Source: an uncultured Cohaesibacter sp.
GTDB lineage: Bacteria; Pseudomonadota; Alphaproteobacteria; Rhizobiales; Cohaesibacteraceae
DNA: 64,000 bases
NCBI RefSeq assembly: GCF_963667045.1
Contig: NZ_OY762934.1
Location: forward strand, 1-64,000
Reading direction: 5' to 3'
The position numbers and the translations under genes were made by a program. Numbering within the stretch: position 1 is the stretch's first letter; each line of letters starts with the position of its first letter. This document shows, piece by piece, positions 1-14,772 of the stretch. The notes under the pieces were generated by a model. That model worked only from the letters and a program-made list of their open reading frames with translations, searched no databases and had not been told where the DNA came from.

Positions 1-1
1 T

Positions 2-676
2 GGGATCATCGTGGATGTGGAGCCGACTGCCCCCATTCGTCAGGCTGAGAATAAAGCTGCCCGCGACATGATCGAACGCGTGATGGCCCAGACCGGTCTC
101 TATCCTGCGCGACTTGTCGGGGACACCGGCTATGGCAGTGCGGAGATGCTGGGATGGCTTGTCTATGAATATGGGATCGAGCCACACATTCCCGTGTTTG
201 ATAAATCAGGGAGACGCGACGGCACCTTCTCACGCTCCAACTTCATTTATGATCCTGATGGAGACGCATATTACTGTCCCGGCGGCAAATCTTTGCATCA
301 ATATCGCCGCCCATTCAAGAATGAGCGAGATGCCATTGATGGCGATGGCATGCGCAGATATCGCGCGAGCAAGCATGACTGCGAGGCCTGTGTTTTGAAA
401 CAGGTCTGTGTTCCCAAAGAGCCAGCCCGCAAGATCATGCGCTCGGTCTTCGAAGGTGCCCGCGATATGGCAAGAGATATCGCCCAGACGGATGATTATG
501 TCATCTCGATGCGTCAGCGAAAGAAGGTGGAGATGCTGTTTGCCCATCTCAAGCGCATCATGAAACTGGACCGGTTACGCCTCAGAGGCCCAAATGGAGC
601 CAGAGACGAATTCCACATCGCAGCAACAGCCCAGAACCTGCGCAAAATGGCGAAACTGATCCCGACCCCGGCGTGA
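2..676 (+). pseudogene. IS1182-like transposase, C-terminal part (cut by window start)
   Basis: The frame is open from the first base of the window (G-I-I-V-D-V-E-P-T...) and ends with TGA at 674-676. Visible features of a DDE transposase of the IS1182/IS5 type are the D-V-E segment, L-V-G-D-T-G-Y-G-S near residue 40, the C-P-G-G segment, four spaced cysteines (Y-Y-C-P, C-E-A-C, V-C-V-P) around residues 90-135, and the E-x-x-F-A-H-L-K-R segment near residue 180 carrying the expected last acidic residue. The following ~75 bases (to about 752) probably contain the right terminal repeat. Whether the element is intact upstream cannot be seen. The element sits directly downstream of the antitoxin at 814-1278, where a toxin gene would be expected. 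Confidence 0.75.
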
Positions 677-813
677 AACGCCATCAGAAGCCTCTCTGCT
701 GCTCCCGATCTCCCCTCAAAATCTACGCCTTTTTCAACGGAATCGGCCGCTTCTTCCATGGGCCGCAATGAAGTCTAGCCAGGAATGTGCCAATCTGAGC
801 ATAGTAGATCTAT

Positions 814-1278
814 CTATGAATAGACGCCTGATTGGATCGACTGCAAATAGGCAAGAACTCTGTCAGATTTACGCTCAGACACCAGATCATATGCAGTTTT
901 TCCGGCCCAACCAGGAATTGGTTGATGTTTAAACCAAAGAGCCGCTCGCTGATCAGATCCAGTCATCTCGCTTGCTAGGTTGAGGATGTTCATTAATGGG
1001 CGAACTGCTTCATCAAGTTTTCGTAAGCCGGATTGCCTATAGAATGAAGGTGTATCAATGCCGGTCAACTTAGCCAACTCGGCCTGAGTGATGCCAAGTC
1101 TCGTCGCGAATGCATGTGCAGATGTAATCTGTTTACCTCCATCGGATGGCGTGACCATGTTTAAAGAACCTCTTTGCGAAGCAAGCATTTGACGTGCATG
1201 CAAGACTATCTCATTCTGTGACCATTTCTCGAACGTTTCAAGCCTCATGAACCGCCAAGGTTTGCCAGAAGACATCAT
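814..1278 (-). CDS. Xre/MbcA/ParS-type antitoxin, apparently without its toxin
   Basis: The 154-residue protein has a central helix-turn-helix-like segment (F-A-T-R-L-G-I-T-Q-A-E-L-A-K, about residues 57-70). Its C-terminal region is typical of the MbcA/ParS/Xre toxin-binding domain: W-F-K-H-Q-P-I-P-G-W, then G-K-T-A-Y-D-L-V, then D-R-V-L-A-Y-L and a final G-V-Y-S. In this family the partner is usually a RES-domain toxin encoded just downstream, and the antitoxin neutralises it and represses the operon. Here the downstream side is occupied by IS1182-like sequence ending at 676, so the toxin appears lost. The start is uncertain: ATG at 1278 or the internal ATG at 1248 (M-R-L-E-T-F) are both possible, and neither has a strong ribosome binding site. 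Confidence 0.7.
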   Translation of the reverse strand: MMSSGKPWRFMRLETFEKWSQNEIVLHARQMLASQRGSLNMVTPSDGGKQITSAHAFATRLGITQAELAKLTGIDTPSFYRQSGLRKLDEAVRPLMNILNLASEMTGSDQRAALWFKHQPIPGWAGKTAYDLVSERKSDRVLAYLQSIQSGVYS

Positions 1279-1534
1279 CTTATGACGGAAGATTATCTGA
1301 ATACCTGCCGTCGGGTCGATGAAAGCAGCGTGCTTCCTTTGAACGATGGAAATACGGAAGAATATTGCGCCACAGATGCCGCCTTGCGAGTGGTGGGATT
1401 GGTCCGCGGTTGCCTGTCGTGATTTGATTTGACTGCGACTAATCTTTCATTCTGAATTGCCCCTCTAGAAACCTCAGAAGGAGGTCTGGTGAAGGCTCTG
1501 TATACTTCAGGGGGGGCATTGATCAAAGGCAACT

Positions 1535-2140
1535 TTACAGCCCAATGCGATGACATTTCTTGTTTTTCTTTCCGCTTCCGCATGGGCACAGATCATTTGG
1601 CTTGGTGTATCGGGGGAAAAGTTTCTTAAGTGCCCGTGCTTTGGCATATTCAAGGCTTGCCAATTCTTGTGCAGGCGCATTCACGATTCTTCCAGAAGAG
1701 TGTTTTTCTATAAAAGCGGCATACTCTGCTGATATGTCCAGAAATGTTTGAACGTCCTTGTCGGTAGTTAAGTTCAGCCTGATGTTGTCTACTCTTTCAA
1801 AAGTGACTTCGCTGAATGCGAAGGAAGGGTCTTCAAGAAATACAATCTTCTTTTCATTTTGGGGTTTGGGGCTCACGTCGATCAGTTTGCCCTCAACTGT
1901 CTTCCAAACTCCGTGATGTTCAGCTTCGATGAAGACTTGCGGCCACAGCCAAATGCACCAGCCATTTACAAGGGACCCTCCTTCGCTTTTGATGCGTGTC
2001 TCGACGTTGAGAAAGCATTCATTTTGTTCTGCCTCAATCGCAGGGCGAACGGGAACAAACTGAGGTGAAGCATCAGGATTAATTGTTCTACAAAAATCGA
2101 GAACCGTTTTGGCAATCCTTTTAGGGGTGCTTGTAACCAT
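1535..2140 (-). CDS. SEC-C motif protein
   Basis: The 201-residue protein ends in a textbook SEC-C zinc-binding motif, C-P-C-G-S-G-K-K-N-K-K-C-H, within its last 18 residues. SEC-C tails bind zinc and occur on SecA and on many uncharacterised bacterial proteins, including some in defence islands. The first ~180 residues are soluble and acidic, with a W-rich segment (G-W-C-I-W-L-W-P near residue 60); I recognise no catalytic motif there. It is divergent from the 80-residue gene at 2197. The Shine-Dalgarno sequence before the ATG is weak. The function of the main domain is unknown. Confidence 0.7.
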   Translation of the reverse strand: MVTSTPKRIAKTVLDFCRTINPDASPQFVPVRPAIEAEQNECFLNVETRIKSEGGSLVNGWCIWLWPQVFIEAEHHGVWKTVEGKLIDVSPKPQNEKKIVFLEDPSFAFSEVTFERVDNIRLNLTTDKDVQTFLDISAEYAAFIEKHSSGRIVNAPAQELASLEYAKARALKKLFPRYTKPNDLCPCGSGKKNKKCHRIGL

Positions 2141-2196
2141 TTTTGTCGAATCATCTTAGGTTGTAGAATAGGTAATTCTAGGCATGAGGATCTGAT

Positions 2197-2439
2197 ATGG
2201 TCAATGTAATCTGGAGCCCTGACAATCTACCGGGCGAACGTCATGTTGTTGTCCAACCTCACGGGCAACCAAGCGGCAAGGTCAAGGCCTATTTCTATGA
2301 TAGCGATGAAGGTGATGATGGTGGTTCTGGGCCATTCGATTTTTTGCTTGATGAAGCTTTGAGGAGAGCGGAGCGTTTTGCTTACCACAAGGGTATTCGA
2401 ACGATAATCGTTCTCAAGGCAGAGTTGGATAAAGCTTAA
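2197..2439 (+). CDS. Small hypothetical protein (80 aa)
   Basis: The ATG is preceded at 7 bases by GAGG (about 2185), a good ribosome binding site. The protein is acidic, with an Asp/Glu/Gly-rich turn near residues 36-45 followed by a helix (F-L-L-D-E-A-L-R-R-A-E-R) and a beta-like segment (I-R-T-I-I-V-L). I do not recognise a family. It lies 49 bases upstream of the CoiA-like nuclease gene in the same direction, so the two may be co-transcribed. A partner or inhibitor role is possible, but nothing in the sequence proves it. Confidence 0.5.
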   Translation: MVNVIWSPDNLPGERHVVVQPHGQPSGKVKAYFYDSDEGDDGGSGPFDFLLDEALRRAERFAYHKGIRTIIVLKAELDKA

Positions 2440-2488
2440 ATTAGCCTCTGTTCTCGGGATTTGGTCTGGCATTTACAGGTGAGGAACA

Positions 2489-3298
2489 ATGCTTGTTGCA
2501 GAAGCTGACGGAGAACGGATTGATGCGATGGTTGCTCAAAAGGGGCCTATGTATCGCTGCCCTGAATGCAAAAGCGAAGTAATCCTGAGAAAGGGTAGGA
2601 AAGTCGTCCCTCATTTTGCTCATAAGCCTCCCACCAATTGTCGATTTGCCAAAGGAGAGACGCGGGCTCATATGGAAGCCAAATACCTGCTTTTTAACGC
2701 TCTGACTACAAGAGGTGTAAAGGCGGCGTTGGAGTATACAGTTGACACCATGCCTGGAGATCGCCGTGCTGACGTAATGGCTTGGGCACCCAACGGCAAG
2801 ATGGTTGCGTTTGAGCTGCAGCATACTCCAATCGGAGTTCCAGACATCGAGCGGCGAGCAGGTTCCTACGCTCGAGCAGGTATCGCTCAAATATGGATCC
2901 CCTTTCTCTCTCAATCTGTTTGGAAGAATGGCGTCAGAACATCAACTGGTTGGAAGGTGGAGAGATACTCTCCCAGACAATTTGAGCGCTGGGTGCATGG
3001 CTTTCATGGCAAGAATGGCATGTGGATGTATGATCCAATCAAGCATGAATTCTGGCGAGGGCATTTTGCCGCCCATATGATTTATGTTGAATCTTCGGAA
3101 TGGTATGATGAAACGGGGACCGAGCAATATGCGGGAGGATTTTCAAGGCATTCGAAACGATATAAAGAGCTTTCTCTATCTGGTCCCCACAAGGCCGATG
3201 AGCTTCTCGTAAAGACATCTCGGCGCAAGGCCTTCTCTGTATCTGGCTATCACTGGCCAGCATGTCGTGTTGTGCAATTTGTGCCAACCAAATCATGA
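2489..3298 (+). CDS. CoiA-like nuclease family protein
   Basis: The 269-residue product has the layout of the competence protein CoiA family. An N-terminal zinc-ribbon-like part has Y-R-C-P-E-C-K near residue 23 and H-F-A-H-K with a following Cys near residues 45-53. A PD-(D/E)XK nuclease core follows: R-R-A-D-V-M-A near residue 92 supplies the Asp, and A-F-E-L-Q-H-T near residue 109 supplies the E-x-Q variant of the catalytic ExK. CoiA-type proteins are linked to DNA processing in competence; relatives on mobile elements are often of unknown role. The start is supported by GAGGA at about 2478-2483. The C-terminal 120 residues are not recognisable. Confidence 0.75.
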   Translation: MLVAEADGERIDAMVAQKGPMYRCPECKSEVILRKGRKVVPHFAHKPPTNCRFAKGETRAHMEAKYLLFNALTTRGVKAALEYTVDTMPGDRRADVMAWAPNGKMVAFELQHTPIGVPDIERRAGSYARAGIAQIWIPFLSQSVWKNGVRTSTGWKVERYSPRQFERWVHGFHGKNGMWMYDPIKHEFWRGHFAAHMIYVESSEWYDETGTEQYAGGFSRHSKRYKELSLSGPHKADELLVKTSRRKAFSVSGYHWPACRVVQFVPTKS

Positions 3299-3958
3299 CA
3301 GTGTTCAAAGGCGGAAAAACAGTGCAAAAAAACTGATGCCCTACAAGAGCCCCCCAGCCAATTCGAGCATCTGGAGGCATCGAGTAAACCACTGATGTTG
3401 CATCTGACGAGTTGAAGGAGTTGGAGTTTGTCGTTTAGTCGATGCATGGCTGGCTTAGGCCGAATATGCCATTTTTCAAAAAATGGAACGTCTTCATCGC
3501 ATCACAGACATCGTAAGGTATAAAATCTTATCTACTGTGAATGAGTGTTCAAGTTGTTCTTCACGCACCAATCTTCCCCCTTTCACAATTATCCAAGACA
3601 TATTAAGTTGCCCGCAGGATGGATATATTCACCATCTCGGGGCGTGAGAACCCCTCACGAAGCGGCCGATGTCGGCCGAAATGGCATCTCCTCGATCTTT
3701 GGGTCGGGGAGGCTTCAGCGCATGTCCAGAGCTCCGGCTTAAAGGCTGTGGCGGTCGTCTTCGTGCGGCTTCTCAACTCCCCGGTCACCAAGTCATTCTT
3801 GGTGACCATTTCCTTGGATTGAGAAGAGTAGGGGGCGCAATGTTGAGCTGGAGCTTAAATGTAAAATCAGATGAAACAGCATGGTCTCGTGTAAAAGGCC
3901 AAAGCAGACCATCGTGTCAAAAATCATTGGCATCGCAAAACCATAAGCGCACGGCAAG
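3299..3958 (+). other. 660-base stretch without a convincing gene
   Basis: Short open frames exist on both strands, but none has a ribosome binding site, domain motifs or protein-like composition over more than a few dozen codons. The clearest structure is a perfect inverted repeat at 3783-3807. This looks like decayed island DNA between the CoiA-like gene and the Mrr-like gene. Confidence 0.5.
3783..3807. repeat. Perfect 10-bp inverted repeat
   Basis: The arms ggtcaccaag and cttggtgacc are separated by 5 bases (tcatt). No T-run follows on either strand, so it is not a classical terminator. It may be an operator, a recombination site or part of a decayed element. It lies about 150 bases upstream of the Mrr-like gene. 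Confidence 0.55.
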
Positions 3959-4891
3959 ATGACCATTCCTGGCTATCAATCACTAATGCTGCCGGTCTTG
4001 CGTTATGCGGCTCAGGCGGAACAACGGGTTCCACCTCTTGCCGAGAAGATTGCTGTCGACTTTGATCTGTCAGCTGCAGAATGCGAAAAGATGCTACAGA
4101 ATGGCGGCCAGAGTATTCTCAAAAATCGGATACACTGGGCGAAATATTATATGCACAAAGCTGGATTGGTTGATTGTCCCGCGCGAGGACGTTTCATCGC
4201 CTCCGATGCAGGCAAACGACTGCTGGCAACAAATCCGCAGAGGCTGGACTATCAACACCTTTTGTCCATCCCACAATTTGCCGCTTACCATGCGGCAAAC
4301 AAGAAGCAAGGAAATGTTGCCTCCACACGTTCGAAGTTTGGCGATGAAACCTCAAAAGAGGCATCAACTCCTGAGGAGCAGATTGAAGATGCATTTGCAG
4401 CCTTGAACACGGCTCTTCAAACCGAATTACTTGATCGAATTCGGGAGAATTCTCCAGCATTCTTTGAGCAGGTAATCGTCGATCTTCTCATTGCCATGGG
4501 ATATGGCGGGTCTCATAAAAACGCAGCAGAGCAATTGGGCAGATCTGGGGATGGTGGCGTGGACGGCGTCATTAATGAAGATCGACTTGGTCTTGATCGC
4601 ATATATCTTCAGGCCAAGAGACATGCTTCGTCAAACAAGATCGGAAGGCCAGACATGCAAGCGTTTGTTGGTTCTCTGGTTGGTTTCGGCGCAACAAAAG
4701 GTGTTTTCGTGACCACCTCATCCTTCACTGACAGTGCGACGAAATATACGAGAAGCCTGCCACAACGCGTGATACAAATAGACGGGGTTCGTTTGGCGGA
4801 GCTGATGATTGAACATGGCGTGGGTACCCGGGCCTATCGCACCATTCAGGTTCAGCGCCTGGACGAAGACTTCTTTTCCGAAGACGGATAG
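3959..4891 (+). CDS. mrr: Mrr-type restriction endonuclease
   Basis: The 310-residue protein matches the Mrr family in length and layout. An N-terminal winged-helix-like domain (about residues 1-100, including the I-H-W-A-K-Y-Y-M-H-K-A-G segment) is followed by a linker. The C-terminal PD-(D/E)XK catalytic domain starts with F-F-E-Q-V-I-V-D-L-L near residue 168; the core is S-G-D-G-G-V-D-G near residue 197 and the Q-A-K motif sits in Y-L-Q-A-K-R near residue 215. Mrr enzymes cut DNA carrying methylated bases and act in the cytoplasm against foreign DNA. A HigA-type antitoxin gene starts 45 bases downstream in the same direction. The ribosome binding site at the start is weak. Confidence 0.88.
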   Translation: MTIPGYQSLMLPVLRYAAQAEQRVPPLAEKIAVDFDLSAAECEKMLQNGGQSILKNRIHWAKYYMHKAGLVDCPARGRFIASDAGKRLLATNPQRLDYQHLLSIPQFAAYHAANKKQGNVASTRSKFGDETSKEASTPEEQIEDAFAALNTALQTELLDRIRENSPAFFEQVIVDLLIAMGYGGSHKNAAEQLGRSGDGGVDGVINEDRLGLDRIYLQAKRHASSNKIGRPDMQAFVGSLVGFGATKGVFVTTSSFTDSATKYTRSLPQRVIQIDGVRLAELMIEHGVGTRAYRTIQVQRLDEDFFSEDG

Positions 4892-4935
4892 AACCGGCCA
4901 GTAGAATGTTCCCTGGCACGAATAAGGACAGAGCA

Positions 4936-5220
4936 ATGCCGAAATCATCGAATATACCGACAGATCATTTGCCAAACCCTCATCCTGGAGAAATTCTGCA
5001 GGAAGAGTTTCTGAAGCCTATGAACCTGAGCTGGGATGATCTTGCACGAGCCGTTCATACACCTTGCAGACAAGTTGACGAGATCGTTCTTGGAAAACGA
5101 GAGATTTCTGCAGATATGGATCGACGATTTACCCGCTACTTTGGTCTGTCCGAGGGCTTTTTCCTCGGGCTGCAATCTGATTATGATCTGTTGGAACAGC
5201 GGCGCGATGCAGTCAAATGA
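4936..5220 (+). CDS. HigA-family antitoxin without adjacent HigB
   Basis: From the ATG at 4936 the 94-residue protein carries the typical HigA/VapI opening N-P-H-P-G-E-I-L-Q-E-E-F-L, then a helix-turn-helix (L-S-W-D-D-L-A-R-A-V to V-L-G-K-R-E-I-S-A-D-M), then R-F-T-R-Y-F-G-L-S-E-G-F-F-L. An in-frame ATG at 4906 is possible, but the residues it adds do not fit the family. HigA proteins normally neutralise a HigB RNase encoded immediately upstream and repress their operon. Here the upstream neighbour is the mrr-like gene, ending at 4891, and no HigB-like frame is visible. It may be an orphan or may have been recruited to control mrr; the latter is speculation. Confidence 0.82.
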   Translation: MPKSSNIPTDHLPNPHPGEILQEEFLKPMNLSWDDLARAVHTPCRQVDEIVLGKREISADMDRRFTRYFGLSEGFFLGLQSDYDLLEQRRDAVK

Positions 5221-5277
5221 CCGGCCCGTCATCACTGTCGGTATGCGAAATAGCACAGAGAAAATCAGGGGTGTAAT

Positions 5278-5517
5278 ATGGAGGTCAATCTTCTCGAAGC
5301 GAAAGCCAAACTCTCGGAGCTTGTCCAGAGAAGCGTTGCTGGTGAAGAAGTGATTATCACCAAAGCGGGAGAGCCGCTTGTGCGACTTATCAAATGCGAG
5401 GTAGATCCCAATCCTCGCAGGTTGGGCCTCTACAAGGAAGCTGGTATTTCAATGGGTGAAGATTTCCACGACGGTGATATCGAGCTGGCCGTTATGTTCG
5501 GGATGGAGGAAGGATGA
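5278..5517 (+). CDS. Phd/YefM-type antitoxin
   Basis: The 79-residue protein begins M-E-V-N-L-L-E-A-K-A-K-L-S-E-L-V with E-E-V-I-I-T-K-A-G-E-P-L-V-R-L close behind, the standard Phd/YefM DNA-binding fold. The tail (residues 45-79) is the variable toxin-binding part seen in antitoxins paired with VapC-type PIN toxins. A purine-rich AGGGG before the ATG supports the start. Its stop codon overlaps an ATG at 5514 (ATGA), which is where the toxin should begin; only a damaged toxin start is present. Confidence 0.82.
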   Translation: MEVNLLEAKAKLSELVQRSVAGEEVIITKAGEPLVRLIKCEVDPNPRRLGLYKEAGISMGEDFHDGDIELAVMFGMEEG

Positions 5518-5559
5518 GGCGACCGCTTCTAGAAAATCGTCTTCATCTGGTTTGCTTAA
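5514..5559 (+). pseudogene. Remnant of a VapC-like PIN toxin start
   Basis: The ATG overlaps the antitoxin stop, as in intact vapBC pairs. The first frame reads M-R-R-P-L-L-E-N-R and the next frame then reads F-I-W-F-A followed by TAA at 5557-5559. PIN toxins of this class open with M-x-x-L-L-D-T-H-x-F-I-W-F-A. The sequence fits that motif if about two bases were lost between L-L and F-I-W and the catalytic Asp became Glu. The rest of the toxin is absent. The match is short, so confidence is moderate. Confidence 0.45.
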
Positions 5560-5578
5560 GCCGAAGTTCCTCAAATAT

Positions 5579-5750
5579 TTATTCAAACAGTGCATCTATA
5601 TCGTTGCGAATGTCGCCCTTTGATTGGCCCAAATTCTTCATCGTCTCTTTGACTGCTTCAACAAGCTCGTCGCCCAATACAGGAATTGTTCCTGCAGGCG
5701 GAATATCCAAGTGAGCGTCAAAGGCATCTTGAAGGTAACCGCTGTTCCAC
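5579..5750 (-). pseudogene. C-terminal fragment of an unidentified gene
   Basis: On the minus strand this stretch reads like the end of a real protein: D-A-H-L-D-I-P-P-A-G-T-I-P-V-L, then G-D-E-L-V-E-A-V-K-E-T-M-K, then a stop after D-I-D-A-L-F-E. Upstream the same frame runs into IS66 sequence translated out of frame, so the 5' part of the gene is missing. The simplest reading is a gene interrupted by an IS66-type insertion. I do not recognise the family. Confidence 0.35.
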
Positions 5751-5980
5751 TCACACTGTATGGGGATAGTTCCAGGGCAGGAGCTCATCGATGTCGTTCT
5801 CCTTATGGCCATTGACGATGGCTTTGAGCGTTCGTGCCAGCAAAGCATGCGGATCCATGCCATTGAATTTTTAGGTTTCGATGAGCGAGGTGATGATCGC
5901 CCGTTTCTCGGCTCCCGCATAAAGGCAGGCAGTGTGGGCTGCAACATGGTCCAAAAACTCAATGCCAACAAATGAAAACA
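5751..5980 (-). pseudogene. IS66-family transposase remnant (TnpC C-terminus)
   Basis: Read on the minus strand, the frame gives H-T-A-C-L-Y-A-G-A-E-K-R-A-I-I-T-S-L-I-E-T, then an in-frame TAA, then K-F-N-G-M-D-P-H-A-L-L-A-R-T-L-K-A-I-V-N-G, and finally I-D-E-L-L-P-W-N-Y-P-H-T-V with TGA at 5751-5753. The S-L-I-E-T-x-K-x-N-G-x-D-P segment and the I-D-E-L-L-P-W ending are the signature of the C-terminus of IS66 transposases. The internal stop and the lack of the rest of the element show that it is dead. Sequence from about 5981 to 6110 is further decayed material. Confidence 0.75.
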
Positions 5981-6226
5981 AGCCGCGAGCACGATGGCAC
6001 GAAGACAACAGCAATGATGCCGAACATCTCAAGCATTTTGAGCTGCACGCTTAGATTATGGGCGGTGCCAGTGAGGTTGCTGACCGCAGTATCATGAGGT
6101 ATACAGAGTTACATCATGTCGCTGATCACAAGCTCCGCATTCGGTATCGCATTGACCTGCTCAATTTGCTTTTCGCGGCAGAGTTCTTCCAACCTGTCAG
6201 TGACAGAGAGGTGTAAAGGCGACCCA

Positions 6227-6370
6227 ATGATCGACTTTGAAACTATTAAAAAAGAATGGGAAAAAGATCCCGAATTCCAAAAGGCCTGCAAAGTCCTCGA
6301 ACCGGAATTCAGAATCGCTAATGCCCTGATTAAAGCACGCAAAACACGCCAAATCACCCAGCCTAAATGA
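6227..6370 (+). pseudogene. Truncated HTH antitoxin (N-terminal part only)
   Basis: From ATG 6227 the 47 residues read I-D-F-E-T-I-K-K-E-W-E-K-D-P-E-F, then L-E-P-E-F-R-I-A-N-A-L-I-K-A-R-K, and stop just after I-T-Q. This is the leader helix pattern of XRE-type antitoxins of the HigA2/RelB-associated kind, in which the helix-turn-helix begins at the L-T-Q triplet. The DNA-binding domain is therefore missing. No toxin gene is recognisable upstream. It is most likely a relic of a toxin-antitoxin pair. Confidence 0.55.
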
Positions 6371-6644
6371 CCAAGCACTTTTTGACGCGCTCTTGAGCGT
6401 CCGGTCTCCCGTGCGTACTCCGCAAAGGAGCGAGAAACTCCGGCGTACTCTCCACAGAGATACTCCATAAATATCATATGAAGATCTCATCGCAGATCAC
6501 GACCAGCGGTCGCAATGTGGGGCGGAAGCAGCGCTTGCTCTTAAAGGAAGCCGTCATGAAAATTAAAGAGCGAAAGGCTTTGTACGCTATCTGTTTTCGG
6601 GAAAGCGGATGTTGTTGTTTCTGCCTCACAACCATCGAAACCGG

Positions 6645-8951
6645 TTAAAGCAGTTTGGAAAGGCCTGTTATTCGACTGAGAGCTCTTGCTGGTTCAGTTA
6701 CTGCTTTTTGGGTGGCTGCGATATCGCCAACCAGAACTACCTGCTTTACCCCTCTGGTAATAGCGGTATAGACAAGACACCGGTCCAACAGTTTACTCTT
6801 GGATATTGGCACAATGATCCGGTTCCATTGGCTTCCCTGGCTTTTATGGATTGTCACTGCATAGCTTCGAAGCACTCTGTCTTGAAGGTCATTTTCAGAT
6901 AGAAGATGAGTGATACCGTCAATTTCTGCTTCAGCCAGAATGATCTCTGCATCATCAGGGATATTCTGCCCTGATGCCAAAAGGTCTGAGATTGGCATGA
7001 GCTTGGTGATGCCATCCTTTTCAAGAAGGATCTGCTTTTCTTGATAGGCTTTGGTGATTGTTCCGAAGGATCCATTGTAGAGATCCCGATCCCAATCATT
7101 TTGAGTGAACATGATTGGACAGCCTTCACAAAAGCCGGTCAATTCATCACCGGATTTGACGGCAAGTTGGTCTTTCAACCGCCTATTATATAGATCCTGG
7201 TTTATATGGACTACTGTTCCAGGACGAAGATCCCGTTCGCCTTTGGAACTGGCCAGTATTTGAACCTCATCTTCATTGCCTTCCTCAATGACCAATTCGT
7301 CATAGAGTTTTGCAACTACATCCGAGATTTCAGTTTTGCTGCAGGGATAGATGCTGACGCCCAAGCTTGGGCCGTTATATTTGGGAAGTGACGGCCAAAT
7401 GCCATCTCGGATTGATTGACTGACTGTTGGGATGCCTGTGGCTCCATCCTGACGATAGACGCGGGAGAGATGCTTTCTGGGAACAATATGACCTTCTCCG
7501 CATAGCAAATGGAATGTCAGGCCAGCGCCAACAGGGGGCAATTGCAAATCATCACCCACCAGAACCAGACGACATCCCGCACTGATCTTGCGGAAGACCT
7601 GGAAAGCACTTGCGATATCAAGCATGGAGGCTTCATCAACCACATAGGTGCGTGAAGCGGGTTCATCTTGCTCTTCTTTGTTTTTGTCAGGAGAGGATTT
7701 GTTTGACGCATGGATGAAGCCTGCGATCGTCATGGCTTTCTTGCCTGTCATATCAACCATACGTTTGGCAGCTCTTCCTGCCAATGCCATTTGAACCACT
7801 TTAGATCCTAACGCATCAAGACCGGCATAAAGAGCAGACAGGGTTGCAGTTTTCCCAACTCCAGCTCCACCGCTGATGACGCAAACCTGATTGGTCAATG
7901 CCATCCAGACAGCTTCTCGCTGTTCATCCCCCAATGGATGGTTGGCTTTCTCCCAATCCATAATTGCTTTGTTGGCTTTATTGCGTTCGCTGGGGCTGAT
8001 TTCAGTCGGATGGCTGTACAACATGTCCTTTTGCGAAGGAACCTCTGTACCATCAACCATTGAGGCAAGGCGCTTGGCAATATAGCGCTCCATGAGCCAT
8101 GCGCCCGTTGAGCTGTATAGACCGCTTTTTTCATCGCACAGCCAGCCACCGGGAGTGGGGGTGTTTATTGCCTGATCCGCTAATGAGGCATCGTTATCGA
8201 GTAGTTTTGTGACGATGCCTTTCAGGGTCATGTGATCCAAGGCTGTATGCCCATCAGTGTCATAGGCACGATACAACGCTTCAGCAACAGCAGCATGGCC
8301 ACGTTTGGGGTCAGTTGGATACATGCCAAGGCGATCAATGGCAATTCGGTCCACTTTTTCCCATTTTTGGCCAAATGCCAACAATCTGTAGGGATCTCGT
8401 GTCAGCTTATCCATGACATGTTCGCCGTAAAACTCGAACAGAGCAGCACCCAGTCCAATAGGAAAGCGGTTTGCGTCCAACCAGGCAATTACTTCACCGG
8501 GATTGAGTTTTTGCCATCCATCAATCAAGATGCGTGCTGCTTCTAATGTGACGATTTCAGACAATGCATCTTCATCACCTTCATTGAGAATGTTGCAGAG
8601 GCCTTCGCCAAATCGATCCCAAAGGGCTATGGCTTTTTGTTGCCCAATACCAGGAAAGCGTTTACCTGATATGGTTGCGATCATGTTGCGTCCAAATGGC
8701 CTGAGAAGTATGGCTTTCTTGGCCCGGAATTGATCATTTCCGCGGTATTTTTCCATTTCGCCTTGTAAGGCCCACAGATCGCCAGATAGGGCAATCTCGT
8801 TTCCCAAAGCCTTCTGGGGCAGGGCGATAGTCAAAGGTGTCACATCGCCGCCTGGAGCATTTTCTTCAATAGGCGTTCCGACCATGATGGCTCCATGACC
8901 GGGCTTGCTCCAGCGGATATGGTTCATCTGAACGGTCAGGTTGATCACCAC
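6645..8951 (-). CDS. RecD-like SF1 DNA helicase of the mobile module
   Basis: The 768-residue protein has the RecD2/TraA type of helicase layout. An N-terminal part contains a helix-hairpin-helix-like segment (F-P-G-I-G-Q-Q-K-A near residue 100). Walker A, G-G-A-G-V-G-K-T, lies near residue 365; Walker B, V-V-D-E-A-S-M-L-D, near 440; and motif III, V-G-D-D-L-Q-L-P-P-V-G, near 470. A C-terminal UvrD-like 2B segment has V-T-I-H-K-S-Q-G-S-Q-W near 720 and Y-T-A-I-T-R-G near 745. It probably unwinds duplex DNA during transfer, replication or repair of the element. It starts with GTG and overlaps the preceding small gene by 7 bases, so translation is probably coupled. It is the last gene of the operon. 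Confidence 0.85.
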   Translation of the reverse strand: MVINLTVQMNHIRWSKPGHGAIMVGTPIEENAPGGDVTPLTIALPQKALGNEIALSGDLWALQGEMEKYRGNDQFRAKKAILLRPFGRNMIATISGKRFPGIGQQKAIALWDRFGEGLCNILNEGDEDALSEIVTLEAARILIDGWQKLNPGEVIAWLDANRFPIGLGAALFEFYGEHVMDKLTRDPYRLLAFGQKWEKVDRIAIDRLGMYPTDPKRGHAAVAEALYRAYDTDGHTALDHMTLKGIVTKLLDNDASLADQAINTPTPGGWLCDEKSGLYSSTGAWLMERYIAKRLASMVDGTEVPSQKDMLYSHPTEISPSERNKANKAIMDWEKANHPLGDEQREAVWMALTNQVCVISGGAGVGKTATLSALYAGLDALGSKVVQMALAGRAAKRMVDMTGKKAMTIAGFIHASNKSSPDKNKEEQDEPASRTYVVDEASMLDIASAFQVFRKISAGCRLVLVGDDLQLPPVGAGLTFHLLCGEGHIVPRKHLSRVYRQDGATGIPTVSQSIRDGIWPSLPKYNGPSLGVSIYPCSKTEISDVVAKLYDELVIEEGNEDEVQILASSKGERDLRPGTVVHINQDLYNRRLKDQLAVKSGDELTGFCEGCPIMFTQNDWDRDLYNGSFGTITKAYQEKQILLEKDGITKLMPISDLLASGQNIPDDAEIILAEAEIDGITHLLSENDLQDRVLRSYAVTIHKSQGSQWNRIIVPISKSKLLDRCLVYTAITRGVKQVVLVGDIAATQKAVTEPARALSRITGLSKLL

Positions 8952-9367
8952 GGCATTCTCCCAATATCCGGCAGGGTTAGGTCTGCGTAGCCTTTTTTTC
9001 GCATCTGGTCTTTCAAATAACGGTTTTCTTCTTCGACTGTCGCCAAACGTTCCTGCAGTTTTTTGACTTGATCAATGGCGTCGGCTTCTCTTCGGGTTTT
9101 GGCTCCTGACGCCAGGGTGTTGGTTTCAGAGACATTGGTTTGATGAGATGGATTGCCTTCAATATTGGCCAGAATTTCAGCAATGGCGGGATTGGTGCGG
9201 AAGACATCCCGCCCAAACTTCAGGTCCTGAGCCATTTTGCTACGGTTCAATTTGCCATTGGAAGACCAGGGAAGAGTTCCTGTGCTCTTCCCATTTTCAA
9301 TGTAGGCCTGGAATTTGTCGGCATATTCCCGGCCGGCATCGGCTCCATTCTTACCTTTGAGGCTCAT
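8945..9367 (-). CDS. Small coiled-coil protein of the mobile module (VPA1267-like)
   Basis: The 140-residue protein starts with K-G-K-N-G-A-D-A-G-R-E-Y-A-D-K-F-Q-A-Y-I-E and a segment L-N-R-S-K-M-A-Q-D-L-K-F-G-R that resembles a small helical DNA-binding motif. Residues 95-125 form a probable coiled coil (K-L-Q-E-R-L-A-T-V-E-E-E-N-R-Y-L-K-D-Q). From memory, this organisation resembles the VPA1267 family found beside gamma-mobile-trio genes. The start has GGAG 8 bases upstream, and a perfect hairpin lies just before that (9391-9412). The role is unknown; an accessory DNA-binding factor for recombination is the natural guess. Confidence 0.65.
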   Translation of the reverse strand: MSLKGKNGADAGREYADKFQAYIENGKSTGTLPWSSNGKLNRSKMAQDLKFGRDVFRTNPAIAEILANIEGNPSHQTNVSETNTLASGAKTRREADAIDQVKKLQERLATVEEENRYLKDQMRKKGYADLTLPDIGRMPW

Positions 9368-9390
9368 TGTGATGCTCCATCAATATCATG

Positions 9391-9412
9391 ACCGCAGCAT
9401 TCATGCTGCGGT
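9391..9412. repeat. Perfect 10-bp inverted repeat in the leader of the 140-aa gene
   Basis: The arms accgcagcat and atgctgcggt flank a 2-base loop and lie 24 bases upstream of the ATG at 9367 on the minus strand. In RNA this would form a very stable hairpin immediately ahead of the ribosome binding site. As DNA it is a near-perfect palindrome suited to a dimeric repressor. There is no T-run, so it is not a simple terminator. Confidence 0.7.
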
Positions 9413-9561
9413 TCTGCCCTCCGGCGAGGACGGGGAGGCAAGGTGCAATGGTCTTCGCGGGGAACCGCCTGCAGCCGCGTTTGCGCGGCGAAGGTGGGCG
9501 GAAGATCCGTTGCACCGCGCCAGGGGCAGCGCCCCTTAGTCTGAACGCTGCCGCGACAAGC
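9413..9561. other. G+C-rich structured insert inside the operon
   Basis: This 149-base gap separates two genes of an otherwise tightly packed operon and is far more G+C-rich than its flanks. It holds nested inverted repeats: ggtgcaatggtctt near 9440 against aagatccgttgcacc near 9502-9516, gccgcg-tttg-cgcggc near 9474-9489, and aggggc-agc-gcccct at 9522-9536. No open frame of merit is seen. It looks like a small structured RNA, a REP-like repeat or a protein-binding region. Confidence 0.45.
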
Positions 9562-10041
9562 TCAAGCAACAGGATACTTACCTATGGCCTTGATTTGTGA
9601 GAGTAATCGATCATTGTGATCTTTTAACCTCTTGTTGTCTCCCATCAGTGTTGCGTTCTGGATTTCCAGATTCTCTGTTTTTTGGCGAAGATAGGCAAGC
9701 TCCTGACTGATCTCTTTGAGGCGATTTCCTTTGGCGGAAGATCGATCCTGGATAGTTTTTATTGCTTGTTCAAAGCGTTTGGTTAGGTCTGCGTATTTGC
9801 CTGTTATGGGCTGATCAATTTTGGGATCAATCCATTCACGAAGATCGTGATTTGGTCCTGCCCAACGTCGCAATTTGGCTCTGTGTTTGGGAAAGTCTTT
9901 AGCATTGAGATCAACATTGTCAGGAAGGCCATCTTTTGCCCATTGTTCCAAGATTAGAACTTTGGCTTCAAAAGCTTCTTTGACTGCTGCTGCTTTTTCC
10001 GATGGTGACAGGTTCTGGGCTGGTTGATCTTGATCAGTCAT
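9562..10041 (-). CDS. Coiled-coil accessory protein of the mobile module (GmtX/TnpC-like)
   Basis: The 159-residue protein has a long C-terminal coiled coil (about residues 100-150, L-A-Y-L-R-Q-K-T-E-N-L-E-I-Q-N-A-T-L and following heptads). A charged N-terminal half includes P-K-H-R-A-K-L-R-R-W-A-G-P. Small coiled-coil proteins sit behind the recombinases in Tn554 (TnpC) and in gamma-mobile-trio islands (GmtX), and by position this is the equivalent. Its ATG overlaps the stop codon of the upstream 821-residue recombinase by 4 bases (ATGA). The molecular role is inferred from position only. Confidence 0.65.
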   Translation of the reverse strand: MTDQDQPAQNLSPSEKAAAVKEAFEAKVLILEQWAKDGLPDNVDLNAKDFPKHRAKLRRWAGPNHDLREWIDPKIDQPITGKYADLTKRFEQAIKTIQDRSSAKGNRLKEISQELAYLRQKTENLEIQNATLMGDNKRLKDHNDRLLSQIKAIGKYPVA

Positions 10042-12503
10042 TGGATTTTCCTCCGACTGCGTTCGACTATTTTTCTGTTGTGTTTCAATGTGTTTTTGAA
10101 TGACTCAAGTTTCCGCCTTGCTGCGATTTCAATTTCTTTGCTTGCTGGATGATTGGCGGTTTTATTTGCTTGATCTATTCTTTCTTCCACTATTTGGATA
10201 TTTTCGGAGAACATCGCGCAATGTGGGCATTGGGAGCAGATTTTTATGGACGCATATGCTTGGTCTGGAAGTCCGGCTTTTATTTCTTCCCCCAAATGCA
10301 TGCTCTTTTCTTTTAGGCATTGAGCTTGTGCGATATGGGATGGATCATGAGGGTTGAATAGGCAATGCGCATGCCCACCATCTATTGGTTCCAGGTATCT
10401 TTTAGGGGCGATCTTTCGCAACTGTTTGATCAAGGAATCCCGTTCATCATCAGGGCTGATGTTAGAAGAGCTGTTGATAGAGACATGGTGCCTTGCCTGT
10501 TCGGTCATTTCGTCAAGCAGTTCATATAAGTCAACGGCGCCTTGTCCGATAGGATGTTCGGTGCCGTTGTACATGTCGAGCATCCTGCTCACCTGATAGT
10601 CAATTCTTACGTCTTCATGGCATTTGCCAATGTCCTTGACGCTTTGGAACGCCTTTTTGGCTTCATTCTTGAGGTCTTGGCTTTCTTCGCTATCACTGTT
10701 GGATATTTGGGTCAGATGAGACAACATGCCAGGATTGGTCATGGTGATATAACGTCGGGTCATTTCAGGGTCAAAATGACGTAAAAAACGGCTAAGAGCG
10801 TCAAGTTTACCAAATTTTTGTCCATAATAGTAATAAACTGCAAATGCGCGACGAAGTTGATGAGTGGTAAATATCCATTTTACACCATTATCATCTGTGT
10901 CAACACCTGTCATTTTTGAGAATACTTTTAGTTTATCATCAAATCGTGTTGATATATACTTTCTATGGTCAGGTATTGTTTTGTAGTCATTGGGTGTTAA
11001 TCTTGGGGTGATAATTTTGGTAATCCAGTTGTGTTGTTCGTGTTCCCTTGCTGTTGCGCTTAGTTGTTCGAGGATTTTTACTGCATAATTAATAGAAGCA
11101 GGGACCGGAATGGTGGAATAATCCTTGATGGTTTTGGCAATGTAACTGGTCATGAGCCAACTACCAGGATTGATAGGGTCTTGAAAGACGCACCCTTCTT
11201 GCAGGCTTTCCAATTCCATTTTTCGGCGTGCAGAGAACCCACCAATCAAAATAAGGCAAGCAGTGACAAGATGCCCCAGTGCTACCTCCAATGACATGCG
11301 ATCAGTGTCTTCTGATAATAAGATATCTCGTTTTTTGGCAGTTGGTGTATCTGTCCATCGTGGGGCGATGTTTGGGAAGCTTTGATGATTAATTGGGGTA
11401 TATTCAGTAATGACAGATTGAATCCTGTTGCGCATTTCGGCGTCACGGGCATTGCTGGGATTCATTTTTGACAACAATTCTGCCCGAATGGCTGCGGATT
11501 CTTCGCAAATTTTCAATATGGCAGGACTGTAATCCAGCACCCAGATTGCGGCATGGTCAAGCAACTGCAGCCACTGTTCTGGGCTAGGAGTTCCCATCCG
11601 CCCTTCAGGTCTACCGGATTTTCCGGTGGGTGAAGGCTTGCGGGACATTTGTTTGGTCCGCTCTTCGCGTGATACCATTTCAAATGGATCAAACTGCAAT
11701 GGATCATGTGTTATTATTCCTTGCACCGAATAGGTGTGCAAGGAGGACCAGATATCCAAAAGTTGTTGTATAGCATTTATAGATAGTCTTGGATCTTCTA
11801 TTATTTTAGAAGTGGATGTATCAGTTTTTTGATTGGATATTTGTTTTAGAGAGTCTTCTGGCGCTGTTTGCAAGATTAGAGATTCTAGGTCTGTCCAGAT
11901 GGAGAGGGTTCGCAATTTGTTGTTGTTGGGTAGTCCCAATTCATTGCAGATTGCATGCAAACTGATTGAGGGTTTTGAATTTTTGTGGTGATTTAGTGGC
12001 CATTTAAATTGGCCATCCAAGACTCTTTCTTTGAGATTGTCAAAGCGCGTTTCTAAGGGAATGAGAGAATATATAGATCCGGATTCTGTGAGGGTGTTGC
12101 AGAAGGTGTCAAACAAATGGCCATCTAGATCCTGCATTTGTTCTATTCCCATACTGATCCGCCAGCGCATGATCCATACTAACTGTAAGAATTTTTTCTT
12201 GGCAATTTCGGCATCTAAATATTTTTGTAATTCTTCTGCAATAAAAATTTTGGCAGTCAGTAGATCTGAGATGTTGGATGGATCAGTTAATAGGATGTTG
12301 CATTCATCTATTACTTGATTAAAATTTATAGTGACCTTGCTGTCGCGGACTTTTTCTGGTTCTCTGGTTTGGATTATCCAGATATTGTGTTTTAGGCTGG
12401 GTTCCTGTTTTTCTTCAGGTGAGGAGGAGCTATTGATCAGCCATTCTGGTCTGCCATATTCAGCCATTTTTTTATTGTGATAGGCCATGTCAATTTGTGA
12501 CAT
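10038..12503 (-). CDS. Large tyrosine recombinase (GmtZ/TnpB-like)
   Basis: The 821-residue protein carries a tyrosine recombinase catalytic core in its C-terminal half. The first Arg lies in G-G-F-S-A-R-R-K-M-E-L near residue 425, a Lys in A-K-T-I-K-D-Y near 460, H-Q-L-R-R near 555, R-H-F-D near 585 and the nucleophile in T-R-R-Y-I near 595. After the core comes a Cys/His-rich tail (C-S-Q-C-P-H-C near residue 755) that may bind zinc, and a long basic helix. These enzymes cut and rejoin DNA through a covalent phosphotyrosine. It starts 3 bases after the 671-residue recombinase gene ends. It is far larger than phage integrases (350-450 aa) and resembles large subunits of multi-recombinase transposition modules. 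Confidence 0.8.
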   Translation of the reverse strand: MSQIDMAYHNKKMAEYGRPEWLINSSSSPEEKQEPSLKHNIWIIQTREPEKVRDSKVTINFNQVIDECNILLTDPSNISDLLTAKIFIAEELQKYLDAEIAKKKFLQLVWIMRWRISMGIEQMQDLDGHLFDTFCNTLTESGSIYSLIPLETRFDNLKERVLDGQFKWPLNHHKNSKPSISLHAICNELGLPNNNKLRTLSIWTDLESLILQTAPEDSLKQISNQKTDTSTSKIIEDPRLSINAIQQLLDIWSSLHTYSVQGIITHDPLQFDPFEMVSREERTKQMSRKPSPTGKSGRPEGRMGTPSPEQWLQLLDHAAIWVLDYSPAILKICEESAAIRAELLSKMNPSNARDAEMRNRIQSVITEYTPINHQSFPNIAPRWTDTPTAKKRDILLSEDTDRMSLEVALGHLVTACLILIGGFSARRKMELESLQEGCVFQDPINPGSWLMTSYIAKTIKDYSTIPVPASINYAVKILEQLSATAREHEQHNWITKIITPRLTPNDYKTIPDHRKYISTRFDDKLKVFSKMTGVDTDDNGVKWIFTTHQLRRAFAVYYYYGQKFGKLDALSRFLRHFDPEMTRRYITMTNPGMLSHLTQISNSDSEESQDLKNEAKKAFQSVKDIGKCHEDVRIDYQVSRMLDMYNGTEHPIGQGAVDLYELLDEMTEQARHHVSINSSSNISPDDERDSLIKQLRKIAPKRYLEPIDGGHAHCLFNPHDPSHIAQAQCLKEKSMHLGEEIKAGLPDQAYASIKICSQCPHCAMFSENIQIVEERIDQANKTANHPASKEIEIAARRKLESFKNTLKHNRKIVERSRRKIQ

Positions 12504-12506
12504 AAG

Positions 12507-14522
12507 TCAGTCCTCCAACATTGGTAATGAGATTTCGCCTGAGATCAGCATTTTTGATGCTTTGCGTGCTGAGCGAATATAGTTGGTCATATGCCCGTGT
12601 TCTGATAACTGTTTTCCGATGGCTTTGACCAAAGCCAATAGGGGCAGGTAGTTCAGACGATATCGGGCTTTGTTGGGATAGTTGAATTGCATTTGTCGCA
12701 ATTTCTTGTGTGTTACATACAGGACCATTAGATTTTGTTCTGTAGGATCAAAACGCAGGATTTCGGGGGAGCCGTAATCAGTTTGTTTGATCAAGCCTAC
12801 AGTGGCAGAGATGCCAGATTGATGGGCCACATTCCTTATGCGTTCCAGATCTTTGACCGTCTTACCAAGTTTTTGGGCAATTTCTTTTTGGTCAAGGTCT
12901 CGGGTCAGAATGCCCTCGACCGCATCTTGGAACAGTCGGATGCTGGCATCTAATTCAGCATTCATGGTTGGTGTATTCAAATAGTGGGGTTGCAATACTC
13001 CAGACCCGGAATGTCCAGCTACTGCTGCTGTTTCTGCAAAGGAATTGGTGTCCTGACGGGTTAGATTGAGTACTGATTTTCGTATTGCTTTGTGCGTAAA
13101 GCCTTTTCTGCCAATAATATGATTTGTATTATCAAATAGATAATGCCCAAATGCTTGGTGTTTTGGTATTGGTTTTGGGTTGAGGTTTGTTGATACATAA
13201 ATCCAGAATTCATCATTGAATAATTCTTCAGAATGATCTCCGAATTCGGATCTCATGGTCTCTGCCATAACCCTGAACCGCTCAATGATGTTTGCACAAG
13301 AGATGCTGTTTCCCCAATTGGTTTTTTTAAGATCAGCATATGCATGGTCATCGTCAGAATTAGGGTTATTATTATCAAGTTCTGCAATAACATGTTTGAA
13401 TTTATCCATTGCCATTTCGGCTTTGGTGTTATTGAGATTCTGACGTTCTCCCAGATATCCAACCACATGATGGCCTGCTCTGTTTTTGAATGCAGTGATT
13501 ATGGATTTGGTTGCTAACATTGAGTGTTTGTCAGAAGTGAAGACATAAGGAAATCTGGTTAGATCTCGTGCGGGTTGCATATTCCAACCTGTGTCACATA
13601 TCAAGATAGTCAGTGCGGCGTAAGCTGCTTGGGATGAAGGGCCAAATGCACTGCGGTAGGCTAAAATGAATAGGTTTCTATCGCGTTGAATTTGTGTGAT
13701 GTCGATCCCGCTGGCTTTTCGCCAGGTTTCAATATCTCTGCAGAGCTTTCGTGCTCTGCTATTAGATATTTTGAAAGTTCCGGTTTTGGTAATTGCTTGT
13801 TTGTAATCGAGCAGTCCTTGTTTGATAATTTCACAAGATTCTGGGTCATTTTCTGGCCCCAATGGCTTGTTATGTAGCAACATTTGCCCGAACTTATGTA
13901 ATCTTTCGTATAAATCAAATATCTCAATGCATTCATTTCTTATAATATTGATTGCTTTTCTATCTCGATCAAATCCTTTTAATCCTTCAAGTTCTATCCA
14001 GTCATTTTCACCAAGTGATTTATTGTGTTTACTTGATGTTTCTGAACTTGAATAAGGTTTTTTGATATATTCAGATTTGAATAAGGTTGGTATAAACTGA
14101 AAATTTTGTTCTTTTCTAATTTTTTCTATTCCATCACAGGCATTCCAAACTCTCATATATTTAGTTTGGTTAGATGATTTTGAACCCTTTTTTATAAATG
14201 GGTCCATATCATTTTCAATTGCTTTAGACCATTTGTTCAATATTTTACAGAATAGACGATTGTGTTTAATTGGATCTGCAATCAACTTATCTATATTCTT
14301 GTTTTGTTCTTCTGCAAAAATGGAATGAATTAGATTGATGTCAGGAGAATCTTGATTGTTTGCCAACCAGATTAAAAAGGAAATTACACCGTTTTTTGTT
14401 TCGGTTATTGTTGCTCCATTATCGCGCTTGAACGCCAACCCATTCACAGCTTCAACAAGGGGTTTGGGGTAGGCTTTTTGCCAATTATTTTTTGATATTT
14501 TTGGGGACACTGAAATACTCAA
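12507..14522 (-). CDS. Tyrosine recombinase (GmtY/TnpA-like), first gene of the module
   Basis: The 671-residue protein has a tyrosine recombinase domain near its middle and C-terminus. T-G-W-N-M-Q-P-A-R-D-L near residue 311 supplies the first Arg; a Lys lies in A-T-K-S-I or A-F-K-N-R near 340. H-K-A-I-R-K follows near 480, A-G-H-S-G-S-G near 507 and a Tyr in Q-P-H-Y-L near 517. The apparent start is TTG at 14522; an in-frame GTG at 14510 is an alternative, and neither has a strong ribosome binding site. It is the gene nearest to the bcp junction (about 120 bases away), where element-end recombinases usually sit. The coding sequence is markedly A+T-rich. Confidence 0.78.
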   Translation of the reverse strand: MSISVSPKISKNNWQKAYPKPLVEAVNGLAFKRDNGATITETKNGVISFLIWLANNQDSPDINLIHSIFAEEQNKNIDKLIADPIKHNRLFCKILNKWSKAIENDMDPFIKKGSKSSNQTKYMRVWNACDGIEKIRKEQNFQFIPTLFKSEYIKKPYSSSETSSKHNKSLGENDWIELEGLKGFDRDRKAINIIRNECIEIFDLYERLHKFGQMLLHNKPLGPENDPESCEIIKQGLLDYKQAITKTGTFKISNSRARKLCRDIETWRKASGIDITQIQRDRNLFILAYRSAFGPSSQAAYAALTILICDTGWNMQPARDLTRFPYVFTSDKHSMLATKSIITAFKNRAGHHVVGYLGERQNLNNTKAEMAMDKFKHVIAELDNNNPNSDDDHAYADLKKTNWGNSISCANIIERFRVMAETMRSEFGDHSEELFNDEFWIYVSTNLNPKPIPKHQAFGHYLFDNTNHIIGRKGFTHKAIRKSVLNLTRQDTNSFAETAAVAGHSGSGVLQPHYLNTPTMNAELDASIRLFQDAVEGILTRDLDQKEIAQKLGKTVKDLERIRNVAHQSGISATVGLIKQTDYGSPEILRFDPTEQNLMVLYVTHKKLRQMQFNYPNKARYRLNYLPLLALVKAIGKQLSEHGHMTNYIRSARKASKMLISGEISLPMLED

Positions 14523-14607
14523 GGTTGTATGGATTATGTTGACTTTTTATATTCCTTTTATGGATCAATCTATCATCAAAAAATATCTATGTAAATCAGT
14601 CAGTCAG

Positions 14608-14772
14608 TCATGCACCTGATTTTATTTCGGCCAAAATGATCTTGGGATAGAAATAGAGGACGACCGGTTTGCCCTTGCAGGCGCTGAGGGAAATTTCGCC
14701 ATCCCCATTGGTTCTCAGGGTGAAGTCGGGGGCAAGATCGCCTGTCTTCGGGTTTGTGTTCGTTTCAGCCAT
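14608..14772 (-). pseudogene. bcp: bcp-type peroxiredoxin, 5' fragment cut by the island
   Basis: From ATG 14772 the frame reads D-L-A-P-D-F-T-L, G-D-G-E-I-S-L-S-A-C-K-G-K and P-V-V-L-Y-F-Y-P-K, the standard opening of the Bcp/thiol peroxidase family. The family continues D-D-T-x-G-C-T, which holds the catalytic cysteine. Here it continues I-I-L-A-E-I-K-S-G-A and stops at 14608. The break is therefore at about 14640, just before the active site, and the 54-residue product cannot be an active peroxiredoxin. The remaining ~110 codons are not in the window and should lie at the other end of the island if insertion was simple. Confidence 0.8.

Follow-up and report, generated by a model that had tools for sequence, protein, structure and literature searches.

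A candidate family of alphaproteobacterial SE-like islands with a split recombinase core and an exchangeable VPA1267-type–helicase gene pair of putative function

What kind of mobile element sets two large recombinase-like proteins beside a RecD-type helicase, and what might the helicase do there? The question arises from a window of 64,000 nucleotides (contig NZ_OY762934.1, positions 1 to 64,000, from an uncultured Cohaesibacter sp.; genome G000), in which five genes on the reverse strand, here called Y, Z, X, V and H, lie one behind the other between 14522 and 6645. We consider it probable, with considerable reserve, that these genes form the entry end of a site-specific island that uses several tyrosine recombinases, of the kind represented by SE (strand-biased circularizing integrative element), GInt, gamma-mobile-trio (GMT) and Tn554 elements, and that moves as SEs do with V and H as a putative helicase aid.

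The limits of the island were obtained from genomes of the same genus. A query from the right flank, run against 18 genomes with the window's own included, gave long matches in eight others; seven of these and G001, a second Cohaesibacter genome that carries the element, were aligned, and the remaining nine genomes gave short matches only. The site is empty in six genomes (G006, G002, G013, G009, G003 and G011), where the alignment jumps from window position 14641 to a point that lies 11,010 bases to the left of the contig origin, 3 bases being shared; in G014 the spacing fits an empty site, but the stretch adjoining the right junction is unaligned. Because the alignments jump across the origin in this way, the element comprises G000:C1 5230074-5241083 plus window 1..14640, a total of 25,650 bp with ends certain to 3 bp or less, its part in the window continuing left past the contig origin to G000:C1:5230074. 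The G001 stretch aligns over that origin, which supports a circular chromosome. The insertion cuts the host bcp/prxQ gene after YFYPK and before DNTPGCT: the 5′ fragment, ending ...YFYPK, occupies 14641..14772 on the reverse strand, the remainder (KDNTPGCT...) lies at G000:C1 up to 5230082, and the AhpC-TSA profile is divided over the two parts (2-35 and 32-122). A motif scan saw no TPGC-type peroxiredoxin copy inside the element, and a tRNA or known RNA gene was rejected as the target, none lying near the right end. In G001 the same site holds an element of about 25.3 kb that is alike at both ends but differs in the middle. The bcp/prxQ-borne island is a multi-recombinase element with defined ends and a specific site. 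SE-6283 likewise inserts in bcp (PMC9345347, PMC5991714), and the primers published in these sources appear to place it in a different part of the gene.

The gene order runs from Y-Z-X-V-H at one end through the cargo to a further recombinase gene, T, at the opposite end. Z (821 residues; 10038..12503, reverse strand) is a large complete tyrosine recombinase by its residues, with R426/R427, K457, H548xxR551, H576 and Y585 unchanged in all 12 sequences aligned, the window's included, and it matches a PHROG integrase at 6e-8. Y (671 residues; 12507..14522, reverse strand), the first gene, lies 118 bp inside the element end and, judged by its motifs, appears to be a degenerate relative: N314 (TGWN) stands at the expected first arginine and HxxR is missing, with K346 (90% or more), R481, H504 and Y514 kept among 10 aligned sequences. 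Y is thereby ruled out as a complete recombinase, so that of the two large proteins, both of which a preliminary description had credited with a full catalytic set, only Z retains that assignment. X (159 residues; 9562..10041, reverse strand) is a coiled-coil protein that occupies the place of Srap, GinD or GmtX and is likened to them by position only. The sixth core gene, T (524 residues; G000:C1 5230084-5231658, reverse strand), ends about 10 bp inside the far element end; its product contains PF00589 (48.3 bits, cut-off 27.1), and R218, K298, H372xxR375 and Y426 are invariant in 8 aligned sequences. With these ends, the empty sites and T as an additional recombinase, the earlier proposal of a mobile island with several recombinases is borne out. 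A PDB sequence-profile search for a solved recombinase returned nothing notable for either Y or Z, and the first scan of genome contigs with a single protein as query gave no match.

The two ends also indicate how the element may move. In the orientation of Y, the sequences are CCC-AAGATC-A at the Y end and AAA-AAGGAC-AAC at the T end, identically in G001, with a spacer frame uncertain by one base; the Y-proximal junction (14635..14646) therefore has AAGATC against the target's AAGGAC, which is found at the T end. Empty sites read AAGGAC in five of six and AAGGAT in one, the T end keeping the target letters. This is the pattern of SEs, in which the intA side has the target's six bases and the opposite side the carried ones (PMC10214605); here the target's bases lie at the T side. 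Because the target's six letters stand at only one end, with others at the opposite end, we infer SE-like movement.

Relatives of the cluster exist in other genomes, some with the helicase, as had been anticipated. In three of three Microvirga genomes the first half of a gene lies upstream of Y and its second half begins about 10 bp after the end of T, and in M. flocculans both halves lie on one contig, 127.9 kb apart. Spacers read from the element ends only are AAGATC at both ends in two Microvirga genomes, AAAATC/AAGATC in one, and GAGGCC/GAGCCC in Rhodovastum, whose 11.47-kb element cuts an SNF2-related gene between ADEVG and LGKT. The target in Mesorhizobium sediminum is a strawberry-notch-type helicase gene (PF13871); that in Microvirga we take by eye to be an AMP-dependent acyl synthetase gene, the one open reading frame compared with Pfam (L007:5882-7849) having matched no family. 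Where they could be read, the targets appear to be conserved coding motifs in different genes. Downstream of the recombinase genes, T is also present at the loci of M. sediminum, Sphingopyxis, Massilia, Ramlibacter, Bradyrhizobium, Azospirillum, Rhodovastum, Roseicella (on the opposite strand), G424 and G850 and, at weaker scores, at those of Alteromonas and G211; six of all these entered the T profile and match it by construction. Weak scores mean little, as the profile also matches an insertion sequence (IS) recombinase weakly.

Among the named systems, only SEs provide a specific profile relative. Z resembles IntB, their large complete recombinase, in its residues and by hhalign (probability 97.4-98%; compare 99.9% for G424, 96% for G211 and 95% for the Alteromonas Z). 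T is complete and of ordinary size, with about the same likeness to IntA, GinA and GmtY. X reaches 72% with its Alteromonas counterpart; Y reaches 98% with that of G424 and a weak 40% with that of G211, and all comparisons of Y with GmtY, GinB, GinC and Tfp fall below significance. T gives 98% with a second Cohaesibacter core, 96% with IntA, 95% with the Alteromonas integrase, GinA and the A protein of G503, and 92% with GmtY. The SE operon intA-tfp-intB-srap, located at one end, is not found here in that order. For the 13-19 bp imperfect inverted repeats of SE ends, local alignment gave no counterpart at the tips, and a 7-base TTTTGAC/TTTTGGC likeness was seen by eye. The word helicase does not occur in PMC10214605, whereas this element has the V-H pair, and its survey lists no SE in Alphaproteobacteria, the class of this element's hosts. 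GInt elements share with the island a recombinase operon at one end, variable cargo and a protein without the first arginine (GinC there, Y here); they keep their recombinases in one operon, however, whereas T stands at the opposite end. T is a distant profile relative of GinA, Y and Z are unrelated to GinB and GinC by profile, and no ginABCD operon was found by sequence in this element. Helicase is likewise absent as a word from PMC5385486, yet GInt-like loci found here carry V-H. GInt-like A-B-C-D operons were seen in the alphaproteobacterial Caulobacter and rhizobia (L042, L022, L038, L039 and L043); of GInts in this class the same two sources report none (survey in PMC10214605) and some (PMC5385486). 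Tn554, which we liken by description only, is presented in PMC10214605 as an element that, like the island, has several recombinases, a small helper and a 6-bp footprint; that description, so far as seen, does not mention V-H.

The preliminary description had instead seen a relative of GMT (GmtY/GmtZ/GmtX) and Tn554 (TnpA/B/C) sets, and a diverged GMT island, with Y, Z and X as GmtY, GmtZ and GmtX and a GMT-like manner of movement, would account for a VPA1267-like V, for the order X-V-H, which recurs in those GMT loci that carry a VPA1267-family gene and a helicase behind GmtX, and for T as a distant relative of GmtY (92%). We regard this as highly improbable and largely refuted: the GmtY, GmtZ and GmtX models (NF040693, NF047926, NF040692) gave no match to Y, Z or X at E ≤ 1 nor to T at E ≤ 0.01, and the same models score 529, 989 and 228 bits on the named Providencia GMT locus, used as a positive control. 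The island also adds a degenerate Y and has T at its far end. Nor did an alphaproteobacterial branch add the helicase, as had been proposed, since named GMT loci of Providencia and Vibrio carry VPA1267 together with the same helicase, an E. coli plasmid has VPA1267 and an ATPase gene similar in DNA to it, and GInt-like elements also bear the pair.

V (140 residues; 8945..9367, reverse strand) combines a predicted helical N-terminal domain with a long coiled coil and matches NF040697 at 42.1 bits (E 8.9e-11), under the cut-off of 90, which suggests a diverged member of the VPA1267 family, one of those that the preliminary description had named for comparison. Its structure model has a pLDDT of 70, and a fold search gave no significant hit (best E 1.1, mostly repressor DNA-binding domains). 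H (768 residues; 6645..8951, reverse strand) overlaps V by 7 bases and is a RecD2-like superfamily 1B helicase in which HHH_RecD2 and C-terminal helicase domains (PF14490, PF13604, PF13538) and Walker A and B motifs are present, in line with the HhH and RecD-type motifs reported earlier; TIGR01448 (RecD2) scores 323.7 bits (2.1e-96), short of the 500 set as its equivalog cut-off. In G016 the V protein (L124:3333-3719) matches PF19776 (DUF6262) at 41.2 bits, above the cut-off of 29, a family that occurs in tyrosine-recombinase elements of other phyla.

V and H are found together far beyond this island. Searches with NF040697 in 398 Pseudomonadota genomes, and with the V alignment in 385 genomes of the class and 247 of the order of G487, found V in 11, 3 (all among the 11) and 12 genomes, respectively, or 20 loci in 18 genomes. 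H directly adjoins V in 17 of the 20 (one H having just 442 residues, L119), lies 1.5 kb off in L051, and is missing from L054, where T follows V; none turned up in L121, whose V match is interrupted by stops. Taken by themselves, the 11 NF040697 loci comprise nine adjacent pairs, one near pair and one V without H. Within the genus an H match occurs in 9 of 18 genomes, eight with V beside H (broken by an insert in G001) and a ninth, in G004, weak and within a 924-residue frame, and the Cohaesibacter V-H loci represent at least three different recombinase cores. Distances among V and among H proteins correlate (r = 0.976 over 24 pairs that include near relatives; 0 of 5000 permutations reach it). 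The preliminary description had called the helicase a fixed partner; this holds nearly for V but not for the recombinases, since V-H accompanies 1 of 9 loci in a GmtX-anchored sample, which also rejects its constant presence in canonical GMTs. In this Z family the pair is found at 3 of 19 loci, and the recombinases occur without the helicase in M. sediminum, Massilia, Azospirillum and others. V-H is thus a linked, co-varying pair found with differently built recombinase cores.

DNA identity points to exchange between cores. Between the Vibrio MAO6 GMT locus (named gmtY and gmtX) and the GInt-like G365 locus (20.4 and 14 kb compared), the sole common DNA is 2641 bp at 92.9%; it opens with the V start codon and closes 41 bases beyond the H stop, with 92% identity for V and 94% for H. 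Their recombinases are different: the GmtY profile scores 30 bits on the G365 A protein, and the GmtZ and GmtX profiles give no match there at 1e-5. In two more cross-core pairs the common DNA likewise opens with the V start codon, and one of these pairs shares a further 83 bp elsewhere. A quick tree of H, made with no shuffled control and with labels of our own (those of G487 and G423 as GMT resting on models that include both), intermixes the core labels with seven changes. From this we propose, tentatively and as less likely than its contrary, that V-H, as a coiled-coil loader plus a dedicated RecD2-like helicase, forms a transposition-helicase cassette of general use and open to exchange, which would dock behind several recombinase cores (this Y-Z-X-T family, GInt-like, GMT and others), turn single-strand exchange into copy-out replication and move between cores as a precise two-gene block. 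Among the matches listed no paper describes this helicase pair; the paper on GMT itself lay outside the coverage and may mention the ATPase. As separate observations, G005 and G006 of Cohaesibacter (L130, L131) have V-H behind another core (about 450, 752 and 680 residues) with little profile likeness beyond its first gene, a Bradyrhizobium ottawaense plasmid (L043:4602-20405) has a GInt-like core plus V-H in two tandem copies, with the second helicase truncated where the stretch ends, and Z and H relatives (P0009/P0018) in Methylosinus sp. PW1, like the Z and V relatives P0007/P0135, suggest more Z-V-H loci, the members of each pair being listed with equally long longest contigs.

In the SE-like movement that we favour, T and Z would cut and join strands at the six-base spacers, and Y and X would bind or organise the element ends; one strand would circularize and replication follow, as work on SEs suggests, circle formation in SEs being strand-biased and leaving no empty donor site. 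Less surely, V may bridge the recombination or end complex and H, and H may unwind the joined strand and so allow a circular copy to form or to be released, in which case elements without V-H would depend on host helicases. In Rhodovastum a RepB-type primase gene sits between X and V, which fits such a role for V-H without proving it.

Several points weigh against this reading. All evidence for movement is comparative, no movement having been observed, and the SE side is represented by one V. anguillarum plasmid locus (L020) assigned to SEs by gene order. Tfp and Srap gave no significant hhalign match to Y and X, respectively, in a comparison of low sensitivity with single SE sequences; the position of intA differs from that of T at the far end; and the best local alignment of the two ends contains no long terminal inverted repeat. 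T, about equally close to IntA, GinA and GmtY, gives no pointer to SEs in particular, was dropped as evidence of specific SE kinship and is best placed, on its profiles, merely among ordinary tyrosine recombinases, its best NCBIfam model being XerD. The structure model of Y is poor (pLDDT 56). On the side of V-H, the searches with the V alignment lean towards H-bearing loci, as 16 of its 22 query rows adjoin H; the correlation of distances, for which there was no control gene pair, shows joint inheritance and not contact; the pair, being optional in the two samples above, cannot be essential to recombination in general; and V is broken in G001.

That optional and exchanged character would also suit a cargo or defence pair that merely travels in islands, RecD-like helicases being found in type IV CRISPR and other defence sets, and H does match PADLOC models (typeIV_RecD 1.8e-46, RecD_like 1.8e-35). 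We consider this unlikely: TIGR01448 fits far better, V-H stands directly behind the recombinase operon on the same strand and outside the variable cargo, 19 of 24 pairs overlap by 1-8 bases with the start codons chosen, and the sole defence-type neighbour among the nearby proteins scanned is an Mrr gene 1.7 kb off on the other strand. RecD2 helicases act on DNA ends, and H might instead protect or repair the donor, by removing covalently bound recombinase or unwinding the nicked donor after one-strand exchange. This role, which we judge rather less likely still, is inseparable from copy-out by sequence data, and resolution of the recombinase-DNA link is left open for SEs in PMC10214605.

The cargo bears on whether the island still moves. 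It includes, on the forward strand, genes for a Mrr-type (type IV) restriction endonuclease (3959..4891; mREase_IV 1.2e-101), a HigA-family antitoxin-like protein (4906..5220; TIGR02607 82 bits, cut-off 47.7) and a CoiA-like nuclease-domain protein (2489..3298), and on the reverse strand one for an Xre/MbcA-type antitoxin-like protein (814..1278); the first two agree with the defence-like cargo reported earlier. Also seen were a group II intron maturase gene (L076:12461-13987), IS transposase frames (DUF772) across the contig origin inside the element (L076:19298 to window 676), a trypsin-like protease with weak matches to LmuA and RT-protease defence models (L076:18172-19053), and a 122-residue open reading frame (6109-6477) with weak REase_MTES_1575 domain likeness, which looks shortened because the G001 copy has 242 residues. 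In G001 the insert that breaks V is 2.57 kb long (L003:17769-20335), is present in two identical copies in that region of the same element, and encodes a 295-residue tyrosine recombinase and a 399-residue protein that by eye is presumably an IS91-family transposase. An island assembled long ago and now immobile would be in keeping with the intron and IS genes, the broken V and the shared site of both carriers; it is nevertheless improbable, as all six core open reading frames are open in G000, and the two carriers, G000 and G001, have kept both ends but differ in cargo. Elsewhere, the M. sediminum (L009) and Sphingopyxis sp. LC363 (L012) elements share 6.28 kb at 99.98% identity, up to where the retrieved stretch stops. 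This points to contamination or to a very recent transfer, and M. sediminum has at least four element copies among the loci listed.

Taken at the level of sequence, the island represents what appears to be a new family of alphaproteobacterial SE-like islands with a split core and an exchangeable V-helicase cassette of putative function. PMC10214605 leaves open by what means SE-type elements complete the exchange of one strand and replicate out, and it names no element-borne enzyme for this; a tightly co-varying helicase pair in core position, swapped between cores, is a direct candidate for this copy-out step. The far-end T gene serves as a marker for delimiting such islands in draft genomes, over up to 128 kb here, and the defined ends and targets, with a compact 11.5-kb relative that has all six genes, offer a ready experimental system.
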